A stretch of DNA of 64,000 bases from an uncultured Veillonellaceae bacterium (GTDB lineage Bacteria > Bacillota > Negativicutes > Selenomonadales > Selenomonadaceae), in assembly GCA_902785705.1 (NCBI GenBank), contig CACZZN010000005.1:124001-188000 (forward strand), in the 5' to 3' direction. This document shows positions 15,894 to 55,933 of this stretch, in pieces. The notes below the pieces were generated by a model, which did no database searches, was not told the DNA's origin, and worked only from the letters and a program-made list of their open reading frames with translations. Within the stretch, counting starts at the first letter, position 1. The number at the start of each line of letters is the position of its first letter. The position numbers were made by a program, and so were the translations under genes.

Positions 15894-15910
15894 GAAACCC
15901 CATCTATTTA

Positions 15911-16033
15911 CCACGAAATCTTAGCGAGCACAAGTCGTAGACGCGGCGGGAGCTTAGATTTCGTGTAAGGGCGTAGCGACACGGAGTCAGTCCCGTTAGG
16001 GATGCAAAACATCGTTTCGCACGGAGTTTTTTC
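15911..16033 (+). repeat. Family B repeat B3
   Basis: A 5' inverted repeat CACGAAATCTTAGC / GCTTAGATTTCGTG is followed by TAAGGGCGTAGCGACACGG, a GTTAGGGATG segment, a ATGCAAAAC-atc-GTTTCGCAC hairpin and GGAGTTTTTT. The copy at 55210-55327 is nearly identical in layout. The GTAGCGAC..GTTAGGG part resembles the long core of family A. Confidence 0.75.
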
Positions 16034-16295: not shown

Positions 16296-16484
16296 AGAAC
16301 CTGTTTAGTATCACGCCCCAGTACCACTGCCGGGTCTTTTTCCGGCTGCCTGCGTCAGATAAAACTTGACGTAGCTCTGCCCTAAAGGACTAGCTTCGCG
16401 TCGCTACGACGGCGTTTTATCTTCCTTGTCAGACGAAAAAATCCCTCGGCATTGTCACTGGTGCTTAGATACTAAACAGGTTCT
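16296..16484. repeat. Family A palindromic element A2 (long core)
   Basis: Outer arms AGAACCTGTTTAGTATC and its complement border a 43-nt core (16368-16410), which read on the minus strand matches the core at 49845-49887 at 42 of 43 positions. The stem next to the core is AGATAAAAC / GTTTTATCT. CTGACGCAG follows on the 3' side, minus strand. Candidate TTA duplications flank GAACCTG..CAGGTTC. One end touches the ftsK stop codon. Confidence 0.85.
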
Positions 16485-21699: not shown

Positions 21700-21750
21700 C
21701 ACAACAACCTCCCAAATTCTTCTTCATTGCCACGCATGCGCCTATTGTAC

Positions 21751-21990
21751 TATGAAATCTTAGCAAGTGCAAGCCAAAGGCGAAGCAGGAGCTTAGGGAA
21801 CCACTGATTAATTCCCTTTTGTCCTTGCCGAGTCTTTTCCTGTCATGCTGCGTCAGATGCCGTTCGACGTAGCTCTGCTACGACTTCACGGCATCCCTGA
21901 CAGAAAAATCCTTCGCCAACGACAAAAGCTCATTTAATCAGTGGTTCCTTAGATTTCGTGTAAGGGCGTGTGGACACCGCAGGTGTCCGG
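21751..21990 (+). repeat. Family B repeat B4, split by element A3
   Basis: The left part (to ..GAGCTTAG at 21796) and the right part (from TTAGATTTCGTGTAAGGGCG at 21949) together reproduce the contiguous layout of copies at 15911 and 55210. They are separated by element A3. The 3' hairpin here is GGACACC-gca-GGTGTCC, different from the other B copies but also paired. It lies between ahcY and surE in a 456-bp gap that holds only repeats. Confidence 0.75.
21797..21948. repeat. Family A palindromic element A3, inserted in B4 (short core)
   Basis: GGAACCACTGATTAA and TTAATCAGTGGTTCC form the ends (with one small mismatch zone). The core is at 21866-21884; read on the minus strand it equals the A1 and A4 cores. 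The stem beside it is GATGCCGT / ACGGCATC and CTGACGCAG is present. TTAG occurs immediately on both sides (21793-21796 and 21949-21952), whereas intact B copies have TTAG once, consistent with a target-site duplication. Confidence 0.88.
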
Positions 21991-22037
21991 TAAGCTTACC
22001 AGGAAAGCCGCCCTGATTTCCAGTTTTTCTTGCTTAA

Positions 22038-22195
22038 GGAACTGGACCGAAATAAATTGCAATTGATGCGCAGGATAAATTTCGACTGTCAAGAAAGGAA
22101 AAACGAAGTCGTAGCAGAGCTACGTCGAGTTTTTCCTGACGCAGACAGACGGAATTTAGACAAGCAGAAAATGTAATTTATTTCGGGATAGTTCC
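22038..22195. repeat. Family A palindromic element A4 (short core), overlapping surE 3' end
   Basis: GGAACTGGACCGAAATAAATT pairs with an arm ending ATAGTTCC. The core is at 22108-22126; the stem beside it is AGGAAAAAC / GTTTTTCCT; CTGACGCAG follows. The right arm from 22156 on is read as surE coding sequence on the minus strand and supplies the stop codon. Confidence 0.86.
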
Positions 22196-49774: not shown

Positions 49775-49956
49775 GGAACTGGAGGAAAATAAGTTAGTCA
49801 TATGGCGTAGAACAAATTTTGTCTGGCAAGGAAGCGGAAACGCAATCGTAGCGACGCGCAGCTAGTCCTTTAGGGCAGAGCTACGTCAAGTTTTCGCTGA
49901 CGCAGTCAGGCAGAATTTGGGCAAGCCAAATGGCTAAGTTATTTTTCGACAGTTCC
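49775..49956. repeat. Family A palindromic element A5 (long core)
   Basis: GGAACTGGAGGAAAATAAG and its partner ending TCGACAGTTCC form the outer arms. The long 43-nt core is at 49845-49887. The stem beside it is AGCGGAAAC / GTTTTCGCT (one G-U pair) and CTGACGCAG follows. TAA flanks both ends (49772-49774, 49957-49959). It fills the gap between purL and a terminator. Confidence 0.88.
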
Positions 49957-55092: not shown

Positions 55093-55209
55093 AAGCATCA
55101 CTCCAAAAAGCAAACGGTCACGTTCCGGTTGGCAAAATACATGCTGTGCATAAAAACCTACGATGCAAAAGGATGGACAGCTATTGGGGCGGTAAGCCTC
55201 CTTTTTACT

Positions 55210-55327
55210 GTGAAATCTTAGCGAATACAAGCCAAAGGCGCAGTATGAGCTTAGACTTCGTGTAAGGGCGTAGCGACACGGAGTTAGTCCCGTCAGGGAT
55301 GCGAAACCTCGTTTCGCACGGAGTTTA
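55210..55327 (+). repeat. Family B repeat B5
   Basis: TGAAATCTTAGCG..GAGCTTAGACTTCGTGTAAGGGCGTAG, then ATGCGAAAC-ctc-GTTTCGCAC and GGAGTTT. Nearly the same as B3. The last bases include the stop codon of the minus-strand HAD gene. Confidence 0.75.
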
Positions 55328-55933
55328 TTCCTGCTGCAGCATTTCCATGATAGCCGGGTAGGTCTTTTCGTATCCCTCGAACAAAATCGCATGGTAACCA
55401 CACTCTTTTGCTGCTTGGATATTCTCCGGCATATCGTCGGTAAAAAGGCATTCCACCGGATCGAGGTGATATTTCTCGCACAGATGTCGATAGATGGCAT
55501 GATCGGGTTTTGCCATTTTCACATAGCAGGAGAAAATCCCCCCGTCCATCAAGGGCAGGAAATCCAATACCCCCCAATTGGCCTCCATGGCAAACTCCGA
55601 GTAATTGGAAAGATAATACACGTCCTTTCCCATATCCTTCAGTTCACGCAGCCACGGAATCGCATACGAATGCTTATGCATGGCGTTTCCTGCCTGGGCA
55701 AGCGTCTGTCGGATGTCCTGCCCATATTCCGGCGCAACAGCTGCCACTCGATCGACTGCCTCCTGCCCGGAAATCTCGCCCCGATCCATGGCTTGCCAAT
55801 AACCGTGCGACCAAATGGCGTCGTTGATGATCCGAATCTTTTCTTCATCTTCTCCATAGCGAGAACGCATATATTTCATCCAGTCGAAATCCATCAACAC
55901 ATTGCCGATATCAAAAATGACATTCCTTATCAA
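55325..55933 (-). CDS. HAD-superfamily (subfamily IA) hydrolase
   Basis: A 202-residue cytoplasmic HAD phosphatase, YihX-like in length. FDIGNV is motif I with the second Asp replaced by Asn-type context (DxGNV is usual for this subgroup), YYLSNY motif II, KPDHAIY motif III and FTDDMPENIQAA motif IV. Start is TTG at 55933 after GGAGGG. The stop codon lies within the tip of repeat B5. Substrate unknown. Confidence 0.87.
   Translation of the reverse strand: MIRNVIFDIGNVLMDFDWMKYMRSRYGEDEEKIRIINDAIWSHGYWQAMDRGEISGQEAVDRVAAVAPEYGQDIRQTLAQAGNAMHKHSYAIPWLRELKDMGKDVYYLSNYSEFAMEANWGVLDFLPLMDGGIFSCYVKMAKPDHAIYRHLCEKYHLDPVECLFTDDMPENIQAAKECGYHAILFEGYEKTYPAIMEMLQQE

Follow-up and report, generated by a model that had tools for sequence, protein, structure and literature searches.

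An IS5-type miniature element interrupting an intergenic repeat between surE and ahcY in a Selenomonadaceae genome

Described elements of this kind and the anatomy of A3

Correia elements, MITEAba12 and TIMEs are short, non-coding elements with inverted ends and a target duplication that occur in many copies, features that they have in common with the element described here (A3), from which they differ in their ends and in their source transposases. REP sequences and REPINs resemble A3 as short intergenic hairpins present in many copies; A3, however, combines terminal repeats with a target duplication, which is not expected of REPs. Full-length relatives of the ends of A3 are known from Burkholderia multivorans, where ISBmu2 and ISBmu23 have been described (PMC3091744) as IS5-like elements that are 1210 bp long, have 16-bp ends, and prefer CTAA. 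The ISBmu2 record has the ends GGAAACGCTGATTTAT and GGAAACGCTGATCAAT, with CTAG on both sides. The ends of ISBmu2 and ISBmu23 (GGAAACGCTGAT..) match A-family copies over the first 12 bases, their target is likewise of 4 bp (CTAG/CTAA), and their transposase is about 50% identical to the Selenomonadaceae one described below; in contrast to these complete insertion sequences, which carry a transposase gene, A3 has no gene and a different interior. A search of open-access papers with a few term combinations returned no literature on such elements in rumen Selenomonadaceae.

The stretch of DNA analyzed (the window, 64 kb) belongs to a 2.0-Mb draft genome in 38 contigs, 82% complete, whose AhcY protein has its closest relatives mostly in rumen Selenomonadaceae. 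Read directly from the sequence, A3 occupies exactly positions 21797-21948, a 152-bp non-coding MITE that forms a hairpin throughout. Its ends are perfect 15-bp inverted repeats (GGAACCACTGATTAA), the left one at 21797-21811 (plus strand) and the right one, its exact reverse complement, at 21934-21948 (minus strand). The junctions read ...GCAGGAGC TTAG (21793-21796) / GGAACCACTGATTAATTCCC ... CATTTAATCAGTGGTTCC (21797-21948) / TTAG (21949-21952) ATTTCGTGTAAGG, that is, GAGC-TTAG, the element, and TTAG-ATTTCGTG, and the two flanks are identical over these 4 bp only. The element folds into a single end-to-end hairpin (-64 kcal/mol; z = -9.9 against shuffles), and its apex GACGTAGCTCTGCTACGA (21866-21883, plus strand) is common to other MITE families and has 34 copies in the genome. 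No ORF of at least 100 amino acids covers A3, which at 152 bp is too short to encode a transposase, in keeping with the small size (under about 300 bp) and lack of a transposase gene expected of an IS5-family MITE; searches of Rfam returned no named family at A3 or at the repeat that it interrupts (family B).

By the gene calls used here, about 95 bp separate A3 from the ahcY start codon downstream of it, and the surE-ahcY gap in which it lies measures 453 bp and contains the B repeat, A3 and most of a further element (family C). Relatives mostly have a gap of about 110-160 bp at this place. A scan predicted a terminator-like stem inside A3 on the ahcY strand (21910-21928), which by itself is no evidence of function.

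A-family copies, target duplication and source transposase

Matches to the 15-bp end of A3 with at most one mismatch number 63 in its own genome, against 0 for the reversed control pattern, and the end sequence is therefore not a product of chance. These ends represent roughly 40 dispersed elements at unrelated sites, the majority of them outside B repeats; within the window, A3 is the only element with this end sequence. At least two interior types occur in this genome, A1 (A3 and its relatives) and A2 (interior GTCGTCCAGATTGGCG...). A3-like elements also occur in several other genera of the same family and in a single genome from a different family, being abundant in two; among viral contigs, the left end of the A1 elements had no exact match. 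In addition, there are 27-bp palindromes made of two A-type ends placed back to back with no interior (L043:686-712, L045:761-787, L048:687-713, L050:693-719, L053:1101-1127, and L054:643-669). Some of these carry a 4-bp duplication (TTAA, TTAT), and they are possibly minimal or collapsed MITEs.

The earlier note on this DNA had allowed either a 4-bp TTAG or a 3-bp TTA duplication at A3, and the copy counts uphold the former and dismiss the latter. Among copies with both ends, a 4-bp duplication was present in 14 of 26 in the own genome (shuffle mean 4.0, maximum 10) and in 30 of 47 in relatives (shuffle mean 13.8, maximum 23), both counts lying above every value obtained when the right flanks were shuffled 2000 times, while duplications of 2, 3, 5, or 6 bp were seen in three copies or fewer each. 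At least three of the four duplication bases match in 20/26 own copies and 42/47 copies of relatives. The duplication length of the end-family of A3 is thus settled at 4 bp. The commonest target is TTAA, with TTAG second in relatives, and the two dominate, in agreement with the earlier expectation of a TA-containing target. The TA-containing 4-bp target of the IS5 group is YTAR, and some A-family copies lie off its strict form (TAAA, ATAA, TAAG, and TATA).

A source of mobility was sought among genomes carrying these ends by means of the DDE_Tnp_1 and DUF772 domains. This search identified an intact autonomous insertion sequence of 1263 bp in a genome of another genus of the same family (L071:1292-2554), with the ends GGAAACACTGATTAAG / GGAAATACTGATTAAT, TTAA on both sides, and a single gene encoding a 333 amino acid transposase. 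The protein is assigned to the IS5 family by NF033581 (NCBIfam; 318 bits, cut-off 140), also matches PF01609 and PF05598, and is about 50% identical to its best plasmid matches, which include ISBmu2. On the left side, 14 of the 15 end bases are the same as in A3, and similarity between the 1263-bp element and A3 ends at about 15 bp. Since the interior of A3 is unlike that of this insertion sequence except for the ends, A3 did not arise from it by a simple internal deletion; an interior not visibly derived from the source element is common for MITEs. Its ends match those of an IS5-family element, so A3 can be placed among the miniature passenger transposons, a well-known kind of element. No transposase of this IS5 type was found in the draft genome of A3 itself (82% complete, 38 contigs), and the incompleteness of that genome may account for the absence; a MITE usually, though not necessarily, shares its genome with the source element.

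The transposase types proposed earlier (IS630, ISL3, or IS200) thus give way to IS5 on duplication length, ends, and the L071 element. An IS630/Tc1-type MITE would be expected to have a 2-bp TA duplication, and 2-bp duplications occur in only 1/26 own and 3/47 related copies. An ISL3-type MITE would be expected to have an 8-bp duplication, and the flanks of A3 agree over 4 bp only. Finally, inverted ends and a duplication are not expected of an IS200/IS605 derivative, and A3 has both. All three were rejected.

Neighboring elements and a shared hairpin-tip module

What had been described as one family A proved to lump together three or more end-families with core sequence in common. MITE-like elements at 16297-16483, 22038-22195, and 49775-49956 have ends of the type GAACCTGTTTAGTATC or GGAACTG..AATAA. 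The last of these, apparently the element earlier named A5 and counted as kin of A3 (with a TAA duplication), begins with GGAACTG.. and belongs to another end-family. Likewise, the 3-bp TAA and TTA cases cited alongside A3 are C elements and the D element at 16297-16483, which fall in other end-families. The D element has the ends GAACCTGTTTAGTATC and a TTA duplication. C elements have the ends GGAACTG...AATAA, and copies show 3-bp TAA/TTA duplications; a 3-bp match was present in 7/20 copies and a 4-bp match in 0/20, the 3-bp excess over shuffles being modest. The C element at 22038-22195 overlaps the 3' end of surE, so that the predicted SurE apparently takes its stop codon and final residues from the element.

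An apex GACGTAGCTCTGC..TACGAC is common to A3 and the elements at 16297-16483, 22038-22195, and 49775-49956, whose stem arms differ in a paired manner. A 24-bp module, CGACGCGAAGCTAGTCCTTTAGGG, is located in the window at 49852-49875 (plus strand) and 16380-16403 (minus strand), and elsewhere in L306, L309, L317, L304, L308, and L120. Counting exact copies and those with a single mismatch (A or C being allowed at one position), the own genome contains it 13 times, in addition to one truncated copy; the reversed control gives 0, and in other genera the module recurs with up to three changes. In most instances it comes immediately after TAG, at the hairpin tips of MITE families that are otherwise unrelated (A1, A2, C, D, and families of another genus), a diverged form is present in B-repeat tails, and empty versions of the module-bearing tips also exist. 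A tentative and rather doubtful explanation is that it is exchanged independently, as a micro-module entering hairpin loops through template switching or an unknown recombinase, rather than a sequence inherited from one ancestor. A different kind of repetition was seen at L131:1440-1716 (G000:C11), where several copies of TTTTCTAAACCGCCTATGCGGCGGATAAC alternate with unique stretches of about 30 bp in a CRISPR-like arrangement.

Insertion into the B repeat and alternative explanations

The central claim of the earlier note, that A3 interrupts a family B repeat with TTAG on both sides, was confirmed to the base. The left part of the host B repeat covers 21748-21796 and the right part 21949-21994 (both plus strand), the latter with a GTGTGGACACC..GGTGTCC tail. 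The intact B repeats reported near 15911 and 55210 were located at 15904-16033 and 55201-55330 (plus strand) and represent paralogous empty sites. B repeats are hairpins themselves, with paired changes in their inner arms (for example TAC/GTA, CAC/GTG, TGC/GCA, and CGC/GCG), and have about 60 matches genome-wide, often in tandem at about 90 bp and with alternative tails.

Four B copies are filled at the identical right-arm TTAG, by A3, two further A1 copies (L009 and L016), and one A2 copy (L032). YTAR sites are few in the window (122), so that B copies make up a fair share of the available targets; four hits on the B TTAG exceed expectation at most weakly, and we make no strong claim of a B hotspot. 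A second before/after record comes from genome G034, in which one MITE is inserted at a TTAA in the end of another: once the inner 160 bp and one of the TTAA copies are removed, what remains is a 160-bp outer MITE that is identical to an intact copy at 158/160 positions. Together with the 4-bp duplication and the many empty B repeats, the four filled copies and the G034 pair bear out the view that elements of this kind insert as discrete units. Across 80 ahcY loci of relatives, no A element was found at the surE-ahcY locus. An orthologous uninterrupted B repeat without A3 was not found, since no genome of the own genus was among the relatives recovered, and the search for an orthologous empty site in the genus of G006 and in that of G002 yielded none either. 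At the insertion site in G002, gene order is kept in G031, where the MITE is absent and the intergenic flanks are too diverged to define an exact empty site.

It could be argued that A entered B only once and that the pair then spread as a composite through whatever agent spreads B, as the three A1 copies share the same B TTAG and the same orientation. This scenario is largely refuted by the B sequences, and we consider it very improbable: the three A1-filled B repeats, including the host of A3, are 2-4 changes from their nearest empty B and 7-9 from one another. Each is thus closer to an empty repeat than to another filled one, and the insertions are therefore independent. Furthermore, the three carry different A sequences, the B tails differ between the two copies whose right flanks are intact, another A sub-family uses the same B site in L032, and A copies lie mostly outside B. 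The best reading of these comparisons is that A3, L009, and L016 entered the same target in separate events. Even less credible, to the point of being nearly negligible, is the idea that no transposition took place and that replication or recombination between repeats, driven by the hairpin, left TTAG on both sides by happenstance. A3 is indeed a strong hairpin, and short modules are common to the A, B, C, and D elements, but the 4-bp duplication is consistent at the exact ends of copies across the genome and of those in other genera, and the L071 insertion sequence has the same ends and the same duplication length.

We therefore favor, with high confidence, the interpretation that A3 is an IS5-type MITE that inserted into a pre-existing B repeat with a 4-bp duplication and was presumably mobilized in trans by an ISBmu2-like IS5 transposase, which would once have been present in the lineage of the A3 host. 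Under this model, a full-length IS5-type element would produce a DDE transposase that recognizes the 15-bp ends of A3 and cuts out or copies the element, which would then be inserted at a short TA-containing target, preferably TTAA or TTAG, giving rise to the 4-bp duplication; here, A3 would have entered the TTAG in the right arm of a B repeat that lay between surE and ahcY beforehand.

In practice, these results serve mainly to annotate such elements correctly and to supply a substrate that is ready for use in an IS5 transposition assay. For a MITE family of rumen Selenomonadaceae, they provide a clean record of insertion and name the likely transposase type, and they show that IS5-type MITEs in these bacteria repeatedly use one site of a common intergenic repeat.
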